Assembly (NCBI RefSeq): GCF_002775205.1
Contig: NC_036453.1
Coordinates: 30,915,213-30,979,212, forward strand
DNA: 64,000 bases
Direction of reading: 5' to 3'
DNA from: Xiphophorus maculatus
Taxonomy: Eukaryota > Chordata > Actinopteri > Cyprinodontiformes > Poeciliidae
In this document: piece by piece, positions 6,939 to 27,692 of the stretch
Layout: each line of letters starts with the position of its first letter
Numbering within the stretch: the first letter of the stretch is position 1
Notes under the pieces: model-generated
The model's database searches: none
Told to the model about the DNA's origin: nothing
The model's input: only the letters and a program-made list of their open reading frames with translations
Made by a program: the position numbers and the translations under genes

Positions 6939-7129
6939 GTAAAAACTATTTTTTCCCTACTTCTCTTTACACGCTTATTGATAAAAATAAAATAAAAAAA
7001 TCACAATTTAAGAATAATGTTTGAACTTAAGCTAAAATAAAAAGTTTTAATTCATCCTGCTGTTAAATAAAATCAAGCGACAGTGAAGAGAAACACAGAT
7101 GAGAAAGATACTTTAAGGGCAGCACGGAG

Positions 7130-7605
7130 TTTTGCATTTCGCCCTCAACTCAATTCAATCTGGAGAGACTCACACAGAGAAGAAAATAGCAGTTAAAAAG
7201 ATTTAATGGTACAATTTCTTTGGCGCTCGGACCCGGCAGAAGACCGTGAGCCGAGGATCGCCGTGAGCAGGCGGTCTGCTCGGCGAGCTCGGGATAGTCT
7301 TCCCCCCGGGACCGAAACTGGTGGTGGAGCGGAGCTTGGAGAGGAAGAGCACAAGGGATCCTGGAGGACGACCCTCATGGTGAAGGTGGAGAAGGGGAGG
7401 AGGTGGGTCGAAGCACGGCTGACGAGCAGGAAGACCCCAGGGTAGCTTGGACTTTTGAAGGTGTCTTTGGACGACGATTGGCTGGAGCGGCGTGAAGCTC
7501 CGGTCCGGATTGGCTGCGGTCGGGCGTAGTGATTAGATGATGTGGTGAAGCTGGTCGAGTCTCCCAGTTTGAATTTTCGCCAAGGCTCCATATGTTAAAA
7601 TCTGC
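7130..7605 (-). other. GC-rich island of unknown origin, possible solo LTR
   Basis: About 400 bp of GC-rich sequence abruptly embedded in AT-rich DNA inside the presumed first intron of copy 2. Read on the minus strand it has two CCAAT boxes (agccaatccgg near 7510, agccaatcgtc near 7480), a GC-rich body, then an ATTAAA at the AT-rich end (about 7203). A promoter, body and poly(A) order of this kind suits a solo LTR, but no target duplication or partner LTR was established. The 132-residue open frame on this strand has no recognised motif. Confidence 0.3.
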
Positions 7606-7946
7606 AGTCCTAACAAAAAAACATCTGTTTTTTTCACTAATTTAAATACATTTAAGAAATCGTTAATATTCACAGTGTTAAGACTAATTCATCAAAAGTT
7701 ACAATTCTACGAGAAAGGATAACGTTACCTGTTTTATGTCAATTTTGTACTGAAATTTACTGTATTTTTAGATGTAGAAAAAAATAAAGGAAGAAAGACC
7801 CAAAGAAAGAAAGACGCAACACAGTTCTTCCAGTCTCCTGTATTTTTTTAGCTACTTGCATCTTTAAAATCACGTAAAACAAACGGGTTTTCATTTTGAT
7901 GGGTATATGAGTAAATAGGAAAAAAACGGTGCTGAATATTGTTTAA

Positions 7947-8175
7947 AAAGTCTGACCACAATGATGAAAGATCATTGTGGTCAGACTTTCTTCTATATTT
8001 AGAAGAAAGTCTATATTTCTTCTAATAACAGACCTTGTTTATATGTAATATTAACAAGGTCATATAAATACATATACATATTTATATGTATTTATATTTA
8101 CATATAAATATTACCTTGTTTATATGTAATATAAACAAGGTCTATATGATATTTCTTCTAAAAACAGACCTTGAA
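7947..8175. repeat. Cluster of consecutive palindromes (hairpin-forming)
   Basis: Successive inverted repeats: 7947-7989 has a 19-bp perfect stem (aaagtctgaccacaatgat) around a 5-nt loop; 7987-8008 has a 9-bp stem; next comes a gaccttgtt/aacaaggtc pair; then a 14-bp tataaatacatata stem; then another accttgttta/taaacaaggt pair. A near-repeated phrase (ttcttctaataacagacc and ttcttctaaaaacagacc) brackets the later hairpins. This looks like a foldback element or a recombination-generated palindrome. Confidence 0.7.
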
Positions 8176-8340
8176 TCTTGATCACAGTTCAGAATTTTTA
8201 AAAAAGAGTATAAAGCACCAAAACCAGATCAAATATTACATATTTGATATAAATTGTGTCAGGTTTCCTTTGCAGGTTTACTTGTTGTCACCTAATATAA
8301 AAATAATTAGAATGTTGCTTTTGGAGAAGGTCAATGTCAA

Positions 8341-9075: not shown

Positions 9076-9137
9076 GATAAGATAAGATAAGAGGTGATAA
9101 ACTTCAGACTTTCTGTTTTCTTGCAGATTTTGCTGTG

Positions 9138-12100
9138 ATGACTGTCTTGGCTGTGCTGTGTTTGCTGCTTCTGCAGACTGGAGCTCATGGTTTTGGTATA
9201 TTTAATGGAAAGTCTCTGAGCCACCAAGCCATCACAGAGAGAGCCGCCCTAAATGTCACAGTGCAGGTGTGCCGCAGCCTGGCTCTGTCTGAGGGCAGGG
9301 ATTTCACTTTTCCTGTAAGAATCGAACAAATTCACCACGTCTTTTTTTAATCCCATTTTCAACCCAATCAGGTTCTGTTTTAATAAAACACAGTGTGTAT
9401 GTCCATGCAGCGTCAGCCTTTTACTGCTTCATCTGTTGCTGCTGCCTGCGGAGCATCAAAATCCTTAAAAAGTTTCATCAAAACCATTCAGCGGATTCAG
9501 AGGAAGAATTTGCAAACGGACATTAAATATGCCCTGAGCGCTCGTCGTCACTGTGACAACGAGGAGCTGGATGCAGGGAAGAAGATAATCACAGACGGTT
9601 TATCGGTCATCAAGGCCTCCAATAAGCAGCAGAACTTTGTTTCAGCAACATCGAGCCTCGGAAGGATTTTCCACACTTTACAGGTATTTCTGGATGGTTT
9701 CCAACTAAAATTCACAGCAACTAATTCTGCTGGTTTGAACAAAAGTTTTTACTTTTAAACTTGTCCGTCTGCTGTTGTACAAGTTACACTGACTAGTAGA
9801 GGTTTTACTTTGAACAATTCAAAATATTCAGCGGTGTTGCGCTATATTTGGTTCTGCTGCCCACTTGTGGAAGAAAGCAGAATAAGGGGTTTCACATTAT
9901 TATTATTAGTAAAGCTGCAATTTTGTTTTTTGTTTCTTTGAAAATCTGCCTGCATCCCATCTAAAAATCATAGCAATTAATTCTGCTGTTTTTGGACGTT
10001 TTTACTTTTAAATTTGTCCGTTTGCTGTGGTAAAAAGGTAAACAGTCTGCAAATTACACTGACTATTGGGAGTTTTTACTTGGAATAATTTCAAATTTTC
10101 ACAGGTTTTGTGCAACATTTTGTTCTGCTGCCCACTTGTGGAAGAAAGCGTCACAAAATGAAAGTTTTAAAGTGCTTTTAATAAGTGGTTTGTGAATCAA
10201 TTCTGTATTTCTGAATTTAATTCAACATCAAAGATGAAAGCTGTAATTTTGTCTCTTGTTTCTTTGAAAATGAAGGATTTCTACAGTCACAGTAACTGGG
10301 TGGAAATAGGCCACAAATTCCCAAATACCAATTTGATCAAAGCGAACGCCCGTGTTGGAAACATAGCAGGTAAAACATGATGATACTGGCTGTAAGGTGT
10401 GTTTGGTAACAAACAAAAGGCAGAGATTTTGTTTTGCAGTAATTTCTGCTCATATTGATCCATTATTTCTGCTCCAATCTGAATCTGCAGCTAAAACCAG
10501 AGCAACCTGTCAGAGGTGTGCTGGAAATGACTGCAGAAACAACATTCGGAGCGACATTCTGAAAAACAACATACTTACTTCAGGATATTTCAGTGTGAAT
10601 TCTTTTTCCAAGCCCTCAGGTAAAAAATATTTTCATGGGTTGATTTTTTTAATTGACACTTTCTGTCATTTCTCTGACTTTACATTGTGATGGTGCTGCA
10701 CTTTATTTGGTCTGATCTGATTTTTTACCAGGTCTTAAAATTGTTTTCATCCAACTTTGAGAAAACACAGAAAATTCTTCATTTATTAAACTTAGAAGAT
10801 GAAGAAAAATATTTAGTTGCCATAATTACTTGGTGCCTTTTTAAAAAACCCTCTAATTTAACCAAATAATCATTACTGCATTTGATTAATCTGATAATAC
10901 TACCAGCTGCATTATTGCTCCAAAAATAACATATGACCATTTCGTAATTTTTAGTGAACTATGTGTGATTTTTCTTTATTACGGTAATTAGCATTTATTT
11001 AAAAAAGCAAGCTTAGTTTTCTCATAGCAACAAGATCTAACATTGCATGAAAATTCAAATACTACATATAACATTGAAAGAGCATTTCTCAAAACTATGA
11101 GAATATTTTTTAGGAGCTTTTGCTGCCTGATGTGTCATTGGACTTTCTTTGGCCCCATGTTTGTGCTTTTTTGGGTACCTGTACATTTCTAAAACCAGCA
11201 GTTATACAAGTTCAAACTGGTTAAATCATTTGTGCTCTTTCTATGATGACAAACAGGAAAATGCAGCCATGGCGGTGTACTGGATAGTACAAGTTTAATG
11301 GAACCAAAAGGTGGAATCAACAAAGATACGCTGGACTCCAGCCATGGACACCTTCACTCTCAAGCAGCCAACATGGCGATAGCAGCAACCAGTGAGCTGC
11401 TGGAGGACGTTCGCATTGCAGCTGGGGACAAAGCATTCCTTGAGTAATAAATTCAGTATTTCTTGCTGAAGTTATGCCATTGTATAATTTATAAAAGTGA
11501 TTTTTGTCTATCTCTGTTTGTCATTCCTTAGGATGATGGGGCTGTTCAAAGGGAAACCGTTGTGTTTTGTGGTCGACACAACAGGAAGCATGGGGGATGA
11601 CATCGCTGCAGTGAAAGAGGTCACAGCCTCAATAATAGACAGCAAGCTGGGAACACCGGATGAGCCGTCGGTTTATGTTCTGGTTCCTTTCAGTGATCCA
11701 GGTCAGTGGTTCTCAAATGGGGGTACGTGGAGGCACTGCAGGGGGTACGTGAAGCTTTTCAAAATATCTTTAAAAAATCAGTAGGCTCCTCATAATAGGT
11801 CTTGGGAAAAATTATTTTGTAAAAAGTTCGATAAAATATAAATGTGTGTTCATACACTGAATTTTATATTCAGTATTTACAGGGTATTTACAGCACTGTA
11901 CCTCTTTTTTATTCCAAAAATGTTTTGCCCGTGTCAGGGGGTACTTGACTAAAATTATATTTTTAAGGGGGTACATCACTGAAAAAAGTTTGAGAACCAC
12001 TGATCCAGGTAAATCTTAACCAGTGTTTCTCAAACCGTTTCAGGCTGACGACCAATTAACTTGAAATTGCCCAACAATGTGCTAATAGTCTCTTGCATTA

Positions 12101-15100
12101 ATAGTCTCTTAACACACGTAGCTGTTTCTTTGTTCATCCATGCTGTTTGGTAAATGTGACTAGCCTCGACAAAGCAGTGAACAAGTTTATTCAGGTTATT
12201 TTGAGTTATTTACAGATTCTGAAAGTGTGGATTTTCAATTATGTTGTTCTTTACTACCAAGTTTTGTGTCCTAGAAACAAAAATTCTCTTCCGCACCATT
12301 ACATTTAAAATAATCCAACAATTTTTATCAATAGTATTTAGTCTATTGAATTATTTTTATTCAAATTAAAATAACAATAGCTGTGAGCAGAGCACTATAA
12401 GCAACCAAAGTCCTAAAAAACAAAGAAAGTTTTCACCAATTGAGACTGACGGTATAAACACGTTCAAAAGAATCGAACGACAAATCAAAACTTTCAGCAG
12501 GTGTAACTTGGCTTTCTGTGATCATAGAAGTATTCCTATACTTTTCTTTTCACCGGTATCTTCAGTTTTTTGTGAGTGACCCGGTTTTAAGCCATTTATC
12601 CAGCGTTATTTTTAAACACAATCCTTTGGTTAGCTAGCTGGTCTATGCATAACACTTTCATATCACATAACATCACGGCAAATAAATGGCCGTTTACATG
12701 CAGTACAGAAAGTCTGTTCTGCACCCTCTGTCATTTGGCTGTAAGAGTTAAGAGGGATAACAGAAAATGTTTTTGTTTTTCATCAAATGTGCAGATTTTG
12801 GGCCACTGATACGGACAACAGACCCGGAAATTTTTAAGGCCTACATCAACTCACTGAGAGCAGCTGGAGGTGGAGATATTCCAGAACTGAGTCTTTCTGG
12901 ACTTCAGGTGCTTTGTTTGATGCTGCAAAATTGATAATATATGAAAAGCAAACACTAAAGCATTCCTTTGTTTCTTCATACAGCTAGCTCTGACTGGCGC
13001 GCCTCCCAATTCTGAGATCTTTATTTTTACCGATGCTCCGGCCAAAGACAAACACCTGAGAAACCCGGTGATTGCACTCATTGAGCAGACCAAATCTGTG
13101 GTGAGTAATTCTGCAGAAGCAATGTAAATTCTGTTGATCCAGTCAAAAATAATCAATGTGAAAGATATAAAAAGAAGATGGCAATGGCCCAATAGTTATC
13201 ACTGTTACCAAACAGATTCAGTGTCTCATAAACATCTTTGTGACACTTCAGTAAAGGGCAATTTCACCTAATTTTTCACTACCTCTTTTATCTACTCTAC
13301 TTAAAAAACCACAACACCTGGACTAGATCATTCTACTATAATAGCAGAATATTTAAAACCAAGTTTGTGATTTGTGAAACCTTTATTTGATTTGTGAAAC
13401 TTCAGTAAAGGGCAATTTCACCAAATTTTTCACTACCTTCAGCATCTTTTATGAGAGAAAGCAAAAAGCTAAAACTGGATACAACAGCAAAATAATGGAC
13501 ATTTCAGAGAAGGAGGAGTTCAGTACTTATCTGGTCCAGATGCAAAAAGAGAACTGAAATCGACCTTTATTGAAGTTTCACAATTCAAATACAGGTTTCA
13601 CAAATCACAAGCTGGGTTTTAAATATTCTGCTATTAGTTGAGAGTAATCTAGTCCAGGTTTGAAGAATCTAGGTGTTGTAGTTTATTAACTAGAGTAGAT
13701 AAAAGATGCCAAATGTAGCAAAAAATTTGGTGGCCATTTCCTGAATCGGAAGCTGCAATTGGAAACCAACTTCAGCTTCGTTACATTTTGGATGGTAAAA
13801 CGTCTCAATATTTCCAGGTTTATTGGTTCCCTCATTTTGTTTCAGGTGAACTTCATGATAACTAATGTTCTTGGGATCCGTCAACAAACACCAGGAAAGG
13901 GCAACCAGCAACAAAGCTATCGGATGGCCAGAGCAGACGGTCAGCTGTACAGAGACCTGGCTCAGACCTCAGGAGGTCAGGCTGTCGAAGTCTCCAAACG
14001 TAATCTGCTGGAGGCCATCAACATCCTAACTGAATCCACCAGCTCCTCTCTGGTATGAAAACAAATCAAGATGAACTGGTTTTATTTTCACGTTTAAAGA
14101 TTTCACCTGCTGAGTTATCTTCAATTTTTCAGGTAACCCTTCTGCAAGCTTCCAGGAATCCTGGAAAAACTGAAATCTTTCCCTTTTCAGTTGATGAGTC
14201 AGTGAGAAATTTGACAATTTACACGACTGGAAGTAATGTTGAGTTTACGCTCATCGATCCCTCAGGTCAGCGTCTACACATTTCATAAGTTGTGCCAACT
14301 TCAATTGCTTTTTTTAACCAGTTTCCATAATTTCTTTGTTTAGGTGTGGTTCAAAATTATGTTAATACAGCAGGATCTTCAATAATTTCATCCCAGACGG
14401 TTGGAAACCTCCACACTGTCAAGTTGCTGACGCTAGCAGGAGTTTGGGAAATAGGAATAGTGTCAAACAATCCCTACAGTCTGAAAGTTGTAGGTAAGAC
14501 TCTGATTTCAACTGTTAAATGTTACAGAATTGTTGAAAAAGTGGTTAAATAAAAAGGTTAGATAACTGAATTCATTGTATTTTTCTGCGTTTACAGGAGA
14601 GAGCTCCATCGACTTCCTGTTTGACTTCATTGTGGAGTCCGACGGTCCGTTTGGAGGATTTGATGTAATCGACAATCGACCCACAGCTGGTAATGAAAAC
14701 ACAGTTTGGATGTATTGAAAATTAACCGGCTTTGGATCAAGAAACGTTTCTTTTCTTCGAAGGAGAAAATGCCAGTCTGCTGGTGACTCTGTTTGGAAGC
14801 GACTCTGCCACGGTGACAGAGGTCACGCTGGTTGAATCGTCGGGTTCTGGTCAGGTTAACGGCACCGTGGAGGCCCAGGGTGGAGGAGAATATATCGTCC
14901 ACTTTGACAGGATCCCATCGGTTGAGTTTGTTGTGCTTGTGAAGGGCCAGAACAACGACGGCGTTTCCAGAGCTTCTTCAAGGTTCTTCCAAAGACAGTC
15001 GGCCACCAGCCTGAGAGCCTCTGTTCTCACTGTCACTGCTGTAAGTGATGCAAGTAAAAGGCAAAACCTTTAAATATTTAAAATAAATCAGTATTTCTGT

Positions 15101-16545
15101 TCTTGTGTCTTAACTGCACTCTTTGTATTATATTTTTAGGATGAGTTAGACATCGTGTTGGAGCCAGGATCACTAAAATCAGTTCTTTTCTCTGTGACGA
15201 CAACCGGCGAAGGAGGACGCTTCACCATTCAAGCCACCAATGACCAAGACCTTCCGCTGTTTTACCCAACTAATTTACTACTGAGTGCTGGAGGTAGTGC
15301 TAACGGGACAGTGAACGTCACAGCTCCTGCCCACACGCCGTCCGGTACCGTCGTCACTCTGACCGTTGGGGCCGTGGCTCCTGGAGGTGCAGACACCAAC
15401 TATGCTGTGCTGCATCTCACCGTCCTGCCAAAAGTAACGTCTCATTTGTTTTTCATACATTTAAGACATCATTGTATGATGGAGAATTAGGGCCATGCTA
15501 ATAAAAAATGAATAAAAATTACGACAATAAAATGATAAAATTACGAGAATAAACTCGTACAAGAAAAACGTCAATGTTTTGAGAATTAGGTTATTCTAAT
15601 ACGAGAATAAAGGCACAATAGTATGAGAATAAAGTTATAGTATTATTAGCATAAAGTCGTAGTACAATTTGAATAAAGTTGTACAAGAATAAAGTCTAAA
15701 TAATACAATAATAACATATTTATAGAATAAAGTCATAGTATAATGAGAATAGAGTACTATTACAAGAACAGAGTCATAATATGAGAATAAAGTTAATATT
15801 GCAAGAATAAAGTCATAATACTATTAGAATAACGTTGTACAAGAATAAAGTCAAAATAATGCAAGAAAAACATCATATTTAAAAAATAAAGTCATACTAT
15901 TACTAGAATAAAGTCATAATGTTATGAGAATCAAGTTATGCAAGAATAAAGTCGGAGTATTTTGAGAATAAAGTTGTAATATTATTAATATTACATTATC
16001 CAAACTCTGATCATTATTTTCTTAATATCCTGTTTGTTTCTGCTATATTTATTATATTCATTTAAATATTCTTATTATTTATTTTCACTGCCTTGTGGGG
16101 TTGCTACTTTTTCCTAGCCGGGCCCTAATACTCTGCTACATTATTGAGAGTAAATATTGATATTTTTGCTGTCGCTCTTGTACAGGTGACTGATTTCACT
16201 CCACCAGTGTGTAAACGACTCAGCCTGCAGAACAGATGCTCTAAAAACTGCAACCAGTTGATGTGGGAGGTCTCCATCCAGGTGAGCGATGGCGTTAACG
16301 GGACGGGTGTGGACAGCGTCAGTCTGAGAGAAGGCAGCGGCACGATGAACATCAGCACAGCAGCTGATAATACGACGACAGTGACGTATGTGGCTTCCTG
16401 CTGCTCGTCTAAAATGCAGCTGGTGGTTGTGGATAAAGTCGGCAACGTGGAAATCTGTAGTTTCTCTGCTGCATCTTGGACCTCGAGAGTGGATTACTCA
16501 GTTTTACTTTTCTTTGTCTTCACATTCCTGAAAGTTTGCTTGTAG
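9138..16545 (+). CDS. VWA7-like protein, copy 2 (complete, 924 aa)
   Basis: Fifteen coding exons: 9138-9314, 9411-9683, 10276-10369, 10491-10619, 11257-11443, 11532-11701, 12795-12907, 12984-13100, 13846-14052, 14133-14265, 14344-14493, 14597-14689, 14763-15040, 15140-15433, 16186-16545. All phases join to one frame. Residues 1-19 are a signal peptide (MTVLAVLCLLLLQTGAHG). Residues 20-290 form an N-terminal domain with HQAITE, DFYSHSNW and a Cys pair (CQRC). A VWA domain covers about 290-490, with MIDAS DTTGS (a Thr variant of DxSxS) and IFTDAPAKD. Beta-rich domains follow, including a probable hemicentin/VWA7-type galactose-binding-like fold, then a Cys-rich exon and a hydrophobic C-terminus. 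The start is the first ATG after the acceptor at 9126; the GTG one codon earlier is not used. The exon 6 donor is remade by a hAT insertion. The molecular role of VWA7 is not established. Confidence 0.9.
9700..10275 (+). repeat. Tandem duplication inside intron 2 of copy 2
   Basis: Two diverged units of about 260-320 bp. Shared phrases include ttctgctgcccacttgtgg (near 9852 and 10120) and ttgtttctttgaaaat (near 9930 and 10255). The second unit ends at the real acceptor (tgaag|gatttc, 10275); the first has a non-functional counterpart (gaaaatctgcc). Confidence 0.7.
11704..12002. mobile_element. Non-autonomous hAT element inserted on the exon 6 splice donor
   Basis: A 299-bp element has perfect 14-bp terminal inverted repeats, cagtggttctcaaa at the left and tttgagaaccactg at the right, typical of Charlie/MER5-like hAT elements. 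It has several internal gggggtac motifs and no transposase. It is flanked by a perfect 8-bp duplication, atccaggt, at 11696-11703 and 12003-12010, the size expected for hAT. That 8-mer contains the end of exon 6 and the GT of its donor, so the donor is now present twice. Confidence 0.93.
13246..13745. repeat. Foldback (long imperfect inverted repeat) in intron 8 of copy 2
   Basis: The left arm, about 13246-13415, pairs with the reverse complement of about 13560-13745. Shared blocks include cttttatctactct, acaacacct, ctggactaga, tagcagaatatttaaaacc and tgatttgtgaaacc. A loop of about 150 bp separates the arms. Within the left arm a 45-bp phrase (cttcagtaaagggcaatttcacc...) recurs directly at about 13400. 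The sequence is non-coding, and is probably a MITE or foldback DNA element. Confidence 0.7.
15490..15990. repeat. Degenerate AATAAAGT minisatellite in intron 14 of copy 2
   Basis: About 500 bp are built from loose repeats of 'gagaataaagtcataatatta' variants. This AT-rich minisatellite type is seen elsewhere in fish genomes. The units are irregular and carry no coding potential. Confidence 0.75.
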
Positions 16546-19907: not shown

Positions 19908-22900
19908 ATGATGCGCTCAGTGTTTGCTGTGCTTTGTTTCCTCCTCCTGCACATCGGAGCGCAGGCATTTGAAATATTGCCTGGGGGTTCTTTAAATCAC
20001 CAGGAAATTACAGAGCAAGCGATTCTCAATGCAACTGTGCAGGCATGCCGCTCTCTAGCCCTGACTGAAGGAACAAACTTCAACTACCCAGTAGGAATAC
20101 ACTCCTGTTACATTATTCTTTCTAGAAACGGATCTCTCTCAGTCCTGGTGACGTTGTGCGTTTTCAGGCTCAGCCTTTCACTGCAGAAGGCGTTGCTGCT
20201 GCCTGCGGCGCCTCGCAGTCGTCGAAGGCTTTCCGTCAAGCCATCACATCCATCAAGCTGAGGAATATCAGAGTGGACATCCGCTACGCCTTCAAACCGA
20301 GCTTCCACTTTGACGAGGAGGAGTTTGTTCAGGGAAGGAGGATCATCACAGAGGGAATGGTTGCTGTCAAAGCCGACAACAGGATGGGGAATTATGAGAC
20401 CGCAAAGGAGAAACTGGGAGAGATTATGCATCCTTTGCAAGTATTCAACATAATTTTTACTTTTTTTTAAAAAGATTGAAATCTTTGTGGATTGACTGGT
20501 AATTCTTCTTCTCTTATCAATGTTGAAGGATTTCTACAGTCACAGCAACTGGGTGGAGCTGGGAAACACATTCCCAAACTCTAATCTGATTAAAGCAGAA
20601 ACTAGCATCGGCAACATCGCAGGTAAAGAGATGGCATGAGCTGATGACCCTGCAGAATGCTGTTTGGATGGAATGGAGTAGAACCATATCATCTGATGCG
20701 GTTTTACTCCATGTCAGATGAAAGCAGAGCCACCTGTCGCAACTGTGTCGGTGACGACTGCACCAACAACATTCTGGAGGACATCATCGCTGGACAGATC
20801 CTGACGTCTGGCTACTTTGGGCTCCTACCTTTTGTCTCAACCAAGCCACCTGGTACATTCACATGCATTTCTCTTACAATTACCTTTGGAAAATTTATTT
20901 TTCTTCTCGAATGCAATACTTGGGTCATTGTCCAGCTTTGTCAGTCACAGATTACAGATATTTATCCTTTTCAACTTGACGAGTAACTATTTCCTTGCAG
21001 CAGTTCTCTGACTCAAAAGTCTAGCTGTTTAAAATAGCAAGGGCTAAGAGGAAAAATAACTAGTTGAGTTTGGTCAAATACAGGTCAAATAATAGCCTAT
21101 ATAGCCTAATCATTTTTTTTTTTTTGTGGAAATCGGTTTCTTGTGTGAATTCAAGCGTTCTTGAAAGGACCCTGCTGGCTTTAAGGGATACAACCGGCAA
21201 TTACTAGACTTTTGTTGTTTTTCTGCTTTGGTTTTTTCCCCATTCATGTTTTCCTGAAGCGATCTGCTCACCACAGCCTGAGGGAAAAGTGTCAGTCCTC
21301 TGCTGCTCTGGGTTCAGCAATGACTTATATCTGAACGATGAGATCAGCTGACTTGCCAAACAAACTCAAAGATGGGTTTTCCAACACCAACCGGTCGTGT
21401 TTTTAGCCATGCGACATTTTTCACCCGCTCCTTTGCCTGGTCTGGTTGGTTCAGGACGAGTTCAGAATAGAAATGCCTTTATTAATCAAAGTTTATTTTG
21501 TACAGCAGATTTCAGCAACGAAACAGTTCAAGGTGCTTTACATCATAACAATACAAAGTCATAGAACACAGTCAACAATTGAAACACATCAAAATGTTTC
21601 ATTTATTACGTTTCAAATGCAACTATAAACAGGTGTTTTTTAGTCTAGATTTAAAGGCACTCGGTGTTTCGGCTGTTTTGCAGTCTATGCCTTCTATTTT
21701 CTGACACGATGCTTAAATCACCCATTTTATTTGCGATATACATTAAAAGATACAATCTCCAGTGGATTTTAAAAACTCTTAATTTCACCAACATGTTTCT
21801 TCTGACAGAAAGTTGTTTTTAGCTAAAGATTAGGGTTAGAGGGCAGGAGACCTTCTGACAAAGACTCAAGATAGTCAGAATACCAGTGGAAACATGCAAA
21901 AACAAATGAGTTTTGATACTGTAATGCTAAAAAGCATCTTTACACTGATGCAAACGTTCAAATAATTGATTTATTTTTTGCGGTGCCTGTAAAACAAACC
22001 CAACTGTGTAAAAGCACTCAAACTTTTGTTTAATCAAAGGAAAGTGCAGTCATGGAGGATCAGCCGATCAAACTGGTAAGATCGAGCCAACCGGTGGGAT
22101 TAACAAGGATTCCTTCCAATCCAGCCACGGACATCTCCACACGCGAGCTGCAAACCTGGCAGTAGCTGCAACCAGCCAGCTTCTGGAGGACATTCGGCTG
22201 GCAGCCGGAGACCTCCCCTTCCTACAGTACGTTTGGTTAAATTATACAGCAATGGGTTTTTATTTATTTTGCTTCATTTTGTTCCATCTCTTTGGAAACT
22301 TTTAGGATGGTGGGGATCTCTAGAGGATCCAGCAAAGCTCTTTGTTTTGTCACTGACACCTCAAAGAGCATGAGCGACGACATCGCCGTGGTGAAGACCG
22401 TCACATCCACCATCATCGACATCCAGGTGGGAACAGAGAACGAACCGTCCGTTTACATCCTCATCCCATTCAGCGATCCAGGTACGGCTTCGCTTCTCCA
22501 CATTTAAACACATTTTCTGTCTGAGGAAGAAAACTACAAACTGATTTGTTTTGTTTGCCAAGGATTTGGGCCAATAATTCGTACAACGGATGCAACACTT
22601 TTCAAGGATATTGTGAACCATCTAACAACTAATGGTGGAGGAGATGATGAGGAAATGAGTCTTTCAGGGCTGCAGGTATGCTCTCGCTGTTCGACTGTCT
22701 TTAAAACCTCAGTTTTTACTGAAGCTGATCTTTACTATATGCATGCATCATCTTACAGCTGGCGTTAACTAGTGCTCCGTTCAACTCCGAGATATTTCTC
22801 TTCACGGATGCTCCTGCTAAAGACAAAGATTTGAAGAACACGGTGATTGCTCTCATAGAGCGAACCCAAACTGTGGTAAGTGTTTGCATGCTAATTACAG

Positions 22901-25900
22901 CGCATATTTTTATAGGGCCTTGCACAGAGGATATATCCCAAACTTTTTTACATTTTGTCACAGAAACTTTAAGTTTTACTGGAATTCTGTGTTTGTGTTC
23001 ACCCCCTTTCCTCTGATGCATCAAAATGAAATCAAATGCAATTGGTAGACCAGTGTAGTTGAAATCTGGCGATTCTGTGAAAATCTTTGATGTTTTTCAG
23101 AGAACTGAAAGTGTCTTGATGACAAAAGGACACACCGGTCAGGTCAATAGTTAAAAATGTTAAAGTAGGTTTGTTTGAAAACAATTTTGACAAGTCAAAT
23201 TACTTATAGGAAAAAGTGTCAAGAATAAATTTACAGTTTGTTGCAAGCCATACAGTGAACATGTGGAATATATATCTAAAACCTGATTGGAGGAAAATTA
23301 ATGTAAATGGTCATGCATGGTTGTGGCACCATCATGCTGTGGGAGAGGCTCAGTTCAATCCCCAGAGGTGCAACAGCAACCTACATGCAGCTGTAACTGC
23401 AGTGAAAAGTGGTTCATTCTGGGTTTTCTGAATTACAGACTAGTCCGGTTACAGTTTTTGAAAAACATGTTTTTCTTTCTTTTCAGTTGCGCACAACTTT
23501 GTTTTGATCTATCACACAAAATACGCCGCGTTTAGTAGCTCAAAAAGTGCAAAAAAAGATAAAATAGTCAAAGGTCCATGAATAGATGATCCATGTGCAG
23601 ATCATTTTTCCATCTCTTGTGTGGAATAATTTTTTTTTTCTTCCCTAGGGTAAACTCTCAGTTTAATTTAAATAGTTGTTTTCTTATTTCAGGTCAACTT
23701 TATGATTACAGACTCGGTCGTTACTAATCGCCGCAGGAGAAGAAACAGCAACCAATTGCAGACGAGAGCGATCTCAGAGTCTGACGCTCAGCTGTACAGA
23801 GACCTGGCTCAGGCGTCGGGCGGTCAGGCCATCGAAGTGACGAAGGCCGAACTTCCTGTCGCCGCAGCAACCATAGTCCAGTCAGTCAGCTCTTCAATGG
23901 TAATGTCAGCCCAGATTTAAATGTGTTTTTGTACATTTAAATCTGGGCCTCCTGGTCTAACCTCTTACTGCGATCTGATAGGTGACCCTTCTGCAGGCGT
24001 CCAGGAACCCGGGAAAAACCGACAGTTTCACCTTTATTGTTGACGAAACTGTTATAAACCCGACAGTTTACATCACCGGCAGGTCCCTCGCTTTCACACT
24101 CGTAAGCCCGACAGGTAATACCACCGCCTGCTAAATTTGAGCCAACACAACGTTTTGTTTCGGTTTTCAAAATATACAGTTTGCAAAAAAAATCTTTACA
24201 GCTTTTTTGTGAAAGCAAAGTCACTTAGTACTGAAAGCCAAATTTATTAATTTCAAAATGCAATAATTAGGATTAGAAAGGTAACTTGTGTTGCAACAGT
24301 ATGCTGATTACTCCCCCCCCCCCTGTCCCCTCCAGGTGTAACTCAGCAAAGCACCGACTCTACCGGCTCATTGATCACTTCTTCAGAGACTGTGGGAAAC
24401 TTCATAACGGTGCGGTTACAAAAGCACGTTGGACAATGGGCAATAAGAATTGTGTCAAACAATCCCTACACCCTGAGAGTTGTTGGTAAGATTTCCACGT
24501 TAGCAACCACTTCAGCATTTACGCTAACTAGCATCTGCTCTTATTTAGGGCAGTTATAATGAAAGTAACTTATTTATAATAGCCCCTTTTTTCCCCTTAA
24601 AAAATAAACTTCTGTACTTGGGTACAACAGAAGAAAACCCAAATATTAGTTTTGTTCTCAGCCACTTTATAACACACTATTGTCTTAAGTATTTTTCTTT
24701 TCTGCAATGAATATCCACAATTCTGATGCTGTAACAAATGCAATGTGTGGAACCTCCATTTACAGAAATGCACCAGGGGTTTCTTGGTCAATACAGTATT
24801 TGTCATTTTAGAGCCTTTATTGTCTCGTAGGAGGAAAATTCAGGAGATTTACATGCACCATCAAAACAAGAGTGCATTTTTACTGATGTACAGAAGTGAC
24901 AGGACTGTGTTTTACATGTTTCACTAAAAAAAATATTTATTTTAAAAAATGCACCAAAATGTAAAGAAAAAATCAGAAACAACAGTCTTGGTCTGAAATT
25001 TGCATTGTTATACTTGTGCATCACAGTCTAACTTTAACTTTGCTGTAAATTTACAAAAAAGGTGATAATAAGGCAAAACTATCATTGAGTTTTTTCTTTT
25101 TCTAATAAAATTATTTATTGCTACAGCAATTTCAAAATGTATTTAACTCAGCAGTTTCTGCTTATACAATGACACCTGTGATTGTATATTCTCTCGACAT
25201 TTTTAAAACATTTACTATTTCTTTCACTGCTTGCAATTTTTCTTTTGTTCCTTCACTTAAATTGTTCTGCGACTTCAACATTAGTCTGTTTCAGCAGAAG
25301 AAATTGACCAAAACTGACAAACACTTTTAATCACACTTATTACATAACATCAGTCTGCATTTACACACTCATGTTTAGCAACATAAGCAATAAACCAAAC
25401 TGTCATGTTTTACCTCATCTATTAGTTCTGCTAATTTTTAAATTATTTGAAAGCAATAAAATACTTTAGATTTTTGTATTTGTAGGTGAGAGCTCTGTCG
25501 ACTTCCTGTTTGACTTTGTCGAGCCGTCTCAGGGTCCTTTCGGTGGATTCGATGCTCTCGACTCGCGTCCCAGAGCAGGTAAACACCTGCTAATCTAAAC
25601 TTTAACCGTGATTAGGTCAGCAGTAATCATTCGGTTTTGTTCTTTCAAGGCTTCAGTGGCAGTTTGTTGGTGACTATATCAGGAAGTGACGCTGCTACTG
25701 TGACAGAAGTTGCTCTGGTGGAATCGACGAAGGGGTCGGAGGAGACGTTGGGAGTTGTTGTGTCGCAGGGTGGCGGGAACTTTTTAGTCCAGGTTGATGT
25801 GATGCCGACGGTGGAGTTTGTAGTGAGAGTAAAGGGGAGAGTTCAAGGTTCTACTGCTGACTTTCAGAGACAGTCGCCCACCAACTTCAGAGCTTCTAAT

Positions 25901-27692
25901 CTGACTCTTACAGTGAGTAAAAGTGTGGCATAAAAATCAAGACCAAAAACCTGATAAATAATGAAAAGTTAACATTTAAACTCTTTTATTCAGGCTGACT
26001 CAGACAGCATCTTGATTGCAGGAGCCATGACCTCTGTGCCCTTCACTGTGGCTTCAAGTAGATCCGATGAAAACATAACCATCCGAGCCACCAACTCGAG
26101 AAGTCTTGACTTGACATTTCCGACCGTTTTATTGGTGGAAAGTGGGAACAGCACTAATGGCACGGTGACCCTGCTGGCTCCGCTGAGCATCCCGTCTGGT
26201 TCCGACGTCATCCTGACCATCGTGGCCGAGACGCCGGATGGAAGTGACACCAACTACATTGTGCTGCGATTCTCTGTAGTAAACTCGGTAATAATGCCAC
26301 AATTAAGTCTTTCAAGTTTACCTTAAGAATTAGGCAATAAGACAGTTCTTTAAGATATTCATACCTATTTTTGCACCAACGCTGGTTCTATCACAGCTCA
26401 ACAAATAAACATTGTGTTGCTTTTCTCAACGCATTTAATGCAACTAATGTTCAAAATTGTAGCCAATGCCAATGAAACATAGTTCCTAACGGAGGAAAAA
26501 GTAAATATATTCAGCAAGTCAAAAGTTTACAGGTTCTCTGGTAATAACTAGATTTAAACTTTCTGCAGATTGAGTTGGTCTGAAATGGGAATTTTCATTA
26601 CAGTTCTCAAGAATAGTGGAAACTTTGCATACAATGGTTGCATTGGTGTTTTTAAAAAGAAAAACTTTCTCCAGTCTGTGTGGTCTGAGTTTTTATCCCA
26701 TAAACCCTCTGAAAGATTTTCATCATTTCACATTTTTCTTAAGACATTTGATGGCAAGAAAAGTTTTCACTTTTCAATTTGGCCTTGTGTGATATGGGCC
26801 AAAGATTTTTGCAACATTTATTGTATTGTTTATTGTAATATTATAAATATTATTATACTAAAAATATAAATGATGTTTGGGTATCTAACTCATGATCAGG
26901 ACTGGGTAAAATGGATGTAAAACTTCAGCACAGTATTCTATGGTTCTTTTTGACTGTTTGAATTTTCATCCGTTTTAATTTGCATTTTCAAATAGGCTTA
27001 TTTGGGTTCATTAAATAGTGCAATAGTAACACTGAAGAGTACACAATAATGGTATTCAATGTTATTCAGATGAATAAATGCTCTTGAAATCAACAGAAAA
27101 GTTAAAGATGACAATCTCAACCATTCTGTCAATGTTGAGGTTTCCAAAAATGATCAAATGATGTTTACTGAAAATTAGACATTACCGCAAATATTAATAC
27201 AATAGTTACCCATCCCTACTCATGTACAGACTAAACCCTTTTTGCAGTTATTAGCTCATATATAATCAAAAATGTAATTAAACTATCTTTTTTTTCTCCC
27301 CACAGTTAAATGATTTCACCCAACCAGAGTGTCAGCTTCTCAGCATGCAGTCCAGCTGTGTTGAAAACTGCAGCCTGTCTGCTTGGGTCGTCTCCATCAG
27401 AGTGACCGACGGCGACAGCGGGGCGGGCGTCGAACGCGTCAGCCTCATACAGGGCACCGGCGTCTTCAACACCAACCTGGAGGCCGGAAACGAGAACGTA
27501 ACGCTGGTGTCCTACGTCGCCTCCTGCTGTGCGCCAGTAATGCAGCTGCTGGTTGTGGACCGGGTCGGCAACGTTGGCACGTGTGGGTTCACTGCCAGGG
27601 TCTCCGGGTCCAGCATGGCCTCGCTGTCTTTCTTTCTGTGTCTCATCATGATGGGGTTTGGACAACTTTTACTGAGTGAATTCATGAACTGA
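19908..27692 (+). CDS. VWA7-like protein, copy 3 (complete, 934 aa)
   Basis: Fifteen coding exons: 19908-20090, 20168-20440, 20529-20622, 20718-20852, 22040-22226, 22306-22481, 22563-22675, 22759-22875, 23693-23899, 23982-24114, 24336-24485, 25486-25578, 25650-25912, 25994-26287, 27306-27692. Exon lengths and phases match copy 2 almost exactly. Residues 1-20 are a signal peptide (MMRSVFAVLCFLLLHIGAQA). HQEITE and DFYSHSNWVELG mark the N-terminal domain. The VWA domain, about 295-495, has a canonical MIDAS DTSKS and LFTDAPAKD, with an Arg-rich insert (NRRRRRN) near its end. The C-terminal Cys-rich exon ends in a hydrophobic stretch, compatible with GPI or membrane attachment. It is more diverged from copies 1 and 2 than they are from each other. 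Its function is inferred to be adhesion or ligand binding at the cell surface. Confidence 0.9.
21468..21720 (-). mobile_element. LINE (L2-like) 3'-end fragment in intron 4 of copy 3
   Basis: Sequence around tttattttgtacagcagatttcagc ... aaggtgctttacat resembles the 3' tail of the element at 8341-9075, read on the minus strand. The adjacent phrase near 21640 (tttaaaggcactcggtgtttcggctgttttgcag) fits the 3' coding end of fish L2-type elements. It is degenerate with no open frame. Confidence 0.5.
22915..23545. mobile_element. Degenerate Tc1-like transposon in intron 8 of copy 3
   Basis: The left end has 'tttttacattttgtcaca ... gttcacccccttt'. The middle has 'ggttgtggcaccatcatgctgtggg', a decayed Tc1-like transposase stretch. 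The right end has 'tttgttttgatctatcacacaaaat', the usual Tc1-like terminal region. Stops and indels throughout rule out an active transposase. Confidence 0.6.

Follow-up and report, generated by a model that had tools for sequence, protein, structure and literature searches.

Several described systems come close to what is seen at exon 6 of a VWA7-like gene, here called copy 2, of Xiphophorus maculatus. In maize, insertions of the hAT element Ds reportedly affect splicing, and one de novo intron is said to have been made by Ds; the likeness to the present case lies in a hAT element whose duplicated target gives splice signals. In the AGGT protosplice-site model of intron gain, AGGT at both ends of an insertion serves as a potential donor and a potential acceptor, and the coding sequence is left unchanged (PMC3443670). 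Introners derived from DNA transposons are likewise described as taking their splice sites from the target site duplication (TSD), from an end of the element or from the place of insertion (PMC9860276). Recursive splicing points carry a juxtaposed AG/GT (PMC8605326; the slash marks the splice point throughout), as do stwintrons (PMC12403724). An intron gained through a retrotransposon in Drosophila has a different geometry (PMC3296678).

The insertion at exon 6 of copy 2 is a clean, apparently singular example of this known kind of event. It differs from the protosplice-site model in that an intron already began at the AGGT, so that the first effect is duplication of and competition between donors rather than intron gain. 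Unlike introners, the element family gives no sign of repeated intron creation among its 12 exact AGGT copies, and unlike recursive points and stwintrons, the acceptor in question is very weak by score. No vertebrate hAT target duplication copying a splice donor was found among titles and abstract openings of the open-licence literature on transposon splice-site duplications, intron gain and recursive splicing, and no first report is claimed. The explanation preferred for the whole, which is held to be probable though well short of settled, is a young hAT insertion at a donor that left two candidate donors and a normal protein at a normal or reduced level.

The insertion and its empty sites

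The window is the whole 64,000-nucleotide stretch of DNA that was analysed. The gene and the insertion occupy the following positions within it.

9138..16545, + strand: VWA7-like copy 2 from start to stop codon; unbroken frame of 924 aa in 15 coding exons (sequence-based model)
11532..11701, + strand: exon 6 of copy 2, first part of the VWA domain (gene model; Pfam VWA_4)
11702..12794, + strand: intron 6 if donor 1 is used, 1093 nt (gene model)
12795..12907, + strand: exon 7 of copy 2 (gene model)
11696..11703, + strand: 5' TSD ATCCAGGT, covering the end of exon 6 and intron positions +1 and +2
11704..12002, + strand: 299-bp MITE (non-autonomous hAT) in the shorter length class, 297-299 bp, recognized by terminal repeats, TSD and near-identical genomic copies
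12003..12010, + strand: 3' TSD ATCCAGGT, carrying the ancestral donor; a single copy stands in three paralogues

The model of copy 2 has GT-AG borders, and its 2775 bases contain one stop and encode 924 residues. Pfam returned PF25107 (1.5e-84), PF25106 (6e-64), PF23560 (3.1e-28) and PF23619 (2.2e-21). The domains found, VWA7_N, VWA_4, a Hemicentin galactose-binding-like domain and Ig_VWA7, are those of the VWA7 family. VWA_4 covers residues 297-471 and the exon 6/7 junction falls after residue 343, where the gene model joins the two exons in frame as ...FSDP-D-FGPL....

An 8-bp duplication across the exon 6/intron junction of copy 2 had been claimed from the sequence alone, together with an insertion of hAT type. 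The duplication lies exactly, to the base, where it had been placed: ATCCAGGT brackets the element with 8/8 positions matching. The terminal inverted repeats, CAGTGGTTCTCAAA, are identical at 14/14 positions and lie inside the 299-bp element at both ends; a 15-bp inverted pair at the ends consists of this repeat plus one flanking base per side. In the hAT superfamily the terminal inverted repeats are short and of CAG...CTG type, and the element has both these and the 8-bp TSD, so that with the family copies described below the assignment to hAT holds. At 299 bp the element is too short to leave room for a transposase. Staggered cutting and repair, the established mechanism of hAT insertion, would have duplicated the whole target and thus placed CAG/GT at both ends of the element; the duplication itself is seen in the sequence.

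The ancestral state of the border can be read from paralogues. A DNA search of the genome, with a query that began inside exon 5 and ended at the target site, matched three places: the gene in the window and two paralogues upstream of it in its cluster, copy 0 (L050; 73% identity) and copy 1 (L051; 72%). The window itself contains one more paralogue, copy 3 (aligned from 19917 to 27647, with its exon 6 border at 22481/22482). In all three paralogues examined the exon 6 border reads GATCCAG/gta, with ATCCAGGT present once, and the element was absent from the stretches searched around that border in each of them. Since the same border stands without the element in 3/3 paralogues, the donor and the intron predate the insertion, as the original prediction had it in stating that the TSD copied a pre-existing donor. 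The predicted empty site, with one copy of the target at the exon border, was thus found at all three paralogous junctions, the comparison being one of paralogues alone; an empty allele of copy 2 should read ...GTGATCCAGGTAAATC.... The corresponding introns are approximately 240, 240 and 81 nt long in copies 0, 1 and 3 versus 1093 nt in copy 2, where 786 nt are left once the insertion is subtracted.

No stop codon occurs in any aligned stretch of copy 2 against copies 0, 1 and 3. For copy 2 paired with copy 0 (411 codons, exons 1-8 only) dN/dS is 0.24; with copy 1 (868 codons) it is 0.33, and with copy 3 (891 codons, where dS of 1.4 is near saturation) it is 0.23. These values measure mostly the time before the insertion. 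By these ratios the VWA7-like cluster is under purifying selection.

The element family

The 704-Mb assembly was searched for further copies, and 40 of 518 first-look candidates were scored, which gave 40 long and 3 short matches. The family sample consists of 39 of the 40 long matches, including the copy in the window; these are the family's best-scoring copies, with a bias towards young ones. Perfect 8-bp TSDs flank 32 of the 39, four have 7/8 matching positions, two have 6/8 and one has 3/8. A random 8-bp match has a probability of 4^-8, and perfect duplications around 32 of 39 copies mean that the TSD at exon 6 is not a matter of chance. The lengths form two classes, one of 317/318 bp (30/39; 26 copies of 317 bp and four of 318) and one of 297-299 bp (9/39; seven copies of 299 bp, one of 298 and one of 297), and the copy in the window belongs to the second with 299 bp. 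Short, uniform in length and present as many near-identical copies, these elements have the properties of MITEs.

The same copies bear on whether the insertion could be an assembly artefact, a reading that is barely credible. Only a single assembly was seen, which is what can be said for it; against it, the ends of the element and its TSD are perfect, the coding frame is unchanged on both sides, and the same element stands at many other genomic places with its own TSDs.

Positions 4-5 are TA in 31 of the 32 perfect TSDs, giving a family target of nnnTAnnn. The sole exception is the insertion studied here, where ATCCAGGT has CA. An nnnTAnnn consensus is that of the TSDs of Buster-group hAT elements (PMC3517528, PMC3499496), and by its target consensus the family would be of Buster type. 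Buster-group hAT MITEs, such as Mar of Drosophila, and the active relative TcBuster resemble it in their 8-bp nnnTAnnn TSDs and short terminal inverted repeats (PMC3517528, PMC3499496); the copy in the window differs from them in its own off-consensus target. A full-text literature search for the 14-base terminal repeat returned no paper, and a pattern scan of viral contigs for the start of the element gave 0 matches.

Divergence of the fetched copies from the family majority ranges from 0 to 1.67%, in a sample that favours young copies. The copy in the window differs from the majority at 2/299 positions, and one of these two differences is shared with one other copy (L018). Because only two differences have accumulated, the insertion at the exon 6 border is taken to be young. 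From its youth it may still be polymorphic; the allele in the assembly may be rare or heterozygous, which a single assembly cannot reveal.

Two candidate donors and their use

A recently active non-autonomous hAT element landed in ATCCAGGT where exon 6 meets intron 6, as the sequence, the paralogues and the family copies show, and the pre-mRNA carries two candidate donors 307 nt apart.

11699..11707, + strand: donor 1, CAG/gtcagt, with +3 to +6 from the terminal CAGT of the element; 7.7 bits, above 12/28 local donors
12006..12014, + strand: donor 2, CAG/gtaaat, ancestral, and also an AG/GT acceptor-donor point; 9.2 bits, above 18/28 local donors
11782..11784, + strand: in-frame TAG met when donor 2 joins exon 6 (translation of the gene model)

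The splice points are CCAG/gtcagt at 11701/11702 and CCAG/gtaaat at 12008/12009, and both donors match CAGGTAAGT (CAG/GTAAGT) at 8/9 positions. Scores were taken from local matrices built on 28 donors and 30 acceptors of copies 1-3, small sets whose borders were modelled from sequence; the donors of copy 3 exons 4 and 13, whose ends are unclear, and intron 6 of copy 2 were left out of the training set. On the same footing the acceptor of copy 2 intron 6 scores 7.1 bits. A second donor matrix gave 4.7 for donor 2 versus 3.9 for donor 1. C at +3, as in donor 1, occurs in only 1/28 local donors, namely in intron 10 of copy 2 itself (CAG/gtcagc).

With donor 1, completed by the CAGT of the element, the element would fall inside intron 6 and the protein would be unchanged. 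With donor 2, part of the transcripts would carry a 307-nt exon extension with a premature stop. Both consequences for the frame had been foreseen: the gene model confirms that donor 1 keeps the frame into exon 7, and that donor 2 leads to a stop about 28 codons in, inside the VWA domain. Reading through into the element adds 27 residues, GQWFSNGGTWRHCRGYVKLFKISLKNQ, before TAG as the 28th codon, and the stop lies inside VWA_4.

Nonsense-mediated decay (NMD) is generally elicited by a stop more than approximately 50-55 nt before the end of an exon. In the donor-2 transcript 224 nt separate the stop from the end of the extended exon, far more than this rule requires, which makes the transcript a predicted NMD target that should be degraded. 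The alternative truncated isoform that had been thought possible is therefore unlikely as a stable product and is the less likely outcome of donor 2. The net effect expected is a normal protein at a normal or reduced level, with no new protein isoform.

How the transcripts divide between the donors decides between the preferred reading and one in which the insertion is mostly a loss of function. According to the latter, which is judged rather unlikely, RNA structure hides donor 1, donor 2 wins, most transcripts carry the premature stop, and the intact frame reflects only youth or low allele frequency. Donor 2 is indeed the stronger by score, and folding points the same way. Across 11 RNA folding runs of varied extent, donor 1 had a mean openness of 0.04-0.43 and donor 2 one of 0.60-0.70, and donor 1 was the less open in 11/11. 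The two ends of the element pair over donor 1 in 5/11 runs (mean pairing 0.80-0.97). In the other six, the 3' end of the element pairs more with a hAT-like end at 12021 (0.46-0.68); donor 1 is still less open, and donor 2 sits in the 18-nt stretch between the arms, within which there are a few pairs. These are static folds that disregard proteins and co-transcriptional splicing, which weakens their bearing on the loss of function. A 73-nt hairpin has -23.1 kcal/mol and a z of -3.99, reached by 1/200 shuffles, and the whole 371-nt region only a z of -1.89, reached by 3/100 shuffles.

12021..12040, + strand: start of another, probably older hAT-like element, resembling a terminal repeat and able to base-pair with the 3' end of the first

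This second start lies 10 bp past the TSD of the first element, with ATCTTAAC as its candidate TSD, and its head faces the tail of the first at a distance of 18 nt. No convincing 3' end for it was found in 12001-14500 with up to two mismatches allowed in the TSD ATCTTAAC and up to three in the terminal repeat.

The age of the insertion also leaves room for a loss of function. Since the insertion, approximately 18 substitutions would be expected in a freely drifting coding sequence of the length of copy 2, and the probability of an intact frame without selection is approximately 0.12, rising to 0.77 at the lower 95% age bound and falling to approximately 0 at the upper, under assumed indel rates that dominate the outcome. 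At so young an age an unbroken frame says little in favour of working splicing. On the other side, donor 2 makes exon 6 477 nt long, compared with 170 nt for donor 1, and exon definition usually favours short exons; moreover, donor 1 lies within the range of the cluster's donors. Use of donor 1, as the preferred reading has it, is likely but not secure on these sequence grounds. The original prediction had gone further, ascribing tolerance of the insertion to a splice site rebuilt by the duplication. Of this, the frame-keeping duplicated donor stands; the claim of tolerance is not supported, given an insertion too young to bear it and a second donor that scores higher and is more open.

Either outcome would be informative. 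The element, its target, the ancestral border and three element-free paralogues can all be read and the event is young, which makes this a natural test of donor competition, and one to which two donors differing by few bases and in structure are well suited. If donor 1 is used, hAT elements with CAGTG ends can hide an insertion from the protein when the target ends in GT. If it is not, a splicing-disrupting allele has been caught before decay.

Candidate splice signals in the element and further features of the cluster

The duplication also creates AG/GT at 12008/12009, a potential acceptor-donor point that had been missed before. The element could in principle be spliced out as a 307-nt intron of its own, from GT at 11702 to AG at 12008, restoring the ancestral CAG/gtaaat, after which the remainder of intron 6 would be removed from donor 2. 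Such nested, or recursive, splicing is very unlikely. The AG/GT is a necessary product of the duplication, the AGGT model of transposon-made introns predicts this geometry (PMC3443670), and introners with both splice sites from the insertion site exist (PMC9860276). The acceptor itself speaks against it: at 1.8 bits it scores below 30/30 local acceptors, no pyrimidine tract precedes the AG, and it is outscored by four other AGs of the element, at 5.8 (11882), 5.2 (11937), 4.5 and 3.5 bits. Where a recursive splice site has a good acceptor abutting a donor, this junction has the AG/GT with an acceptor of 1.8 bits. The introner survey also found no pattern of gain in vertebrates (PMC9860276).

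The genome offers little precedent within the family. Exact AGGT+CAGTGGTTCTCAAA sites number 12, the copy in the window included. The other 11 are all TAGGT, and a perfect duplication was found for 5/11 in a simple end search, which takes the best-matching end within 2.5 kb and can mislead for individual copies. The open frame upstream of the site is 71 codons plus a modelled exon for the copy in the window, compared with at most 52 codons for the other 11, which are unannotated and might include a short coding exon; this too counts against nested splicing. Among the 12 copies with exact ends and AGGT directly before them, only the one in the window is known to have a coding exon ahead of it. 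These sites lend no support to introner-like behaviour of the family, and the exon 6 case looks like one unlikely hit rather than a programme, as far as 12 exact sites go.

The mRNA from nested splicing would be identical to that from donor 1. A stronger version, in which a single transposition made an ordinary intron nested, is highly improbable: an AG/GT ratchet would have the element removed first and the ancestral donor regenerated, and the choice of donor could switch according to whether the 3' end of the element pairs with its 5' end or with the older hAT end, 18 nt downstream. If true, this would be a fresh and possibly still polymorphic vertebrate recursive intron.

A second possibility overlooked before is that part of the element serves as an exon.

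11883..12008, + strand: candidate 126-nt cryptic exon, open and in frame, from the in-element acceptor at 11882 to donor 2

This exon would add 42 residues inside the VWA domain, and its inclusion is extremely unlikely. The segment is open, keeps the frame into exon 7 and is bounded by the best-scoring in-element acceptor and donor 2. That acceptor, at 5.8 bits, is nevertheless above only 1/30 local acceptors; by our own estimate, it is not very unusual for chance to yield a 42-codon open frame whose length is a multiple of three; and the added residues would interrupt the VWA domain. A 71-nt cryptic exon at 11938-12008 was rejected for a frame shift and stops.

Other features of copies 1 and 2 were observed along the way. 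Stretches at 7000-7153, 7589-8331 and 9092-9262 are 97-99% identical to the region upstream of copy 1 (L029, 1793-2843), and the last of them takes in the first approximately 42 codons of copy 2 exon 1; the remaining matches along the two genes are approximately 74-88% identical. This pattern points to a recent event, either a duplication or a gene conversion, with its breakpoint within exon 1. Between copies 1 and 2, exons 12 and 13 (102-548; 14597-15040) share 87 and 90% protein identity, where exons 2-11, 14 and 15 share 61-79%; the difference suggests gene conversion at this place. An inverted repeat at 13244-13668, in intron 8 of copy 2, has arms of 68-88% translated identity and is possibly another small transposon. 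A 15-bp tandem repeat, GTAACAACGAGCAAC, is present in 29.5 copies at 1392-1834 within an open frame at 1035-1931. It starts just past 1367, where the alignment of the last exon of copy 1 with copy 2 ends; copy 1 may have a long repetitive C-terminal tail.
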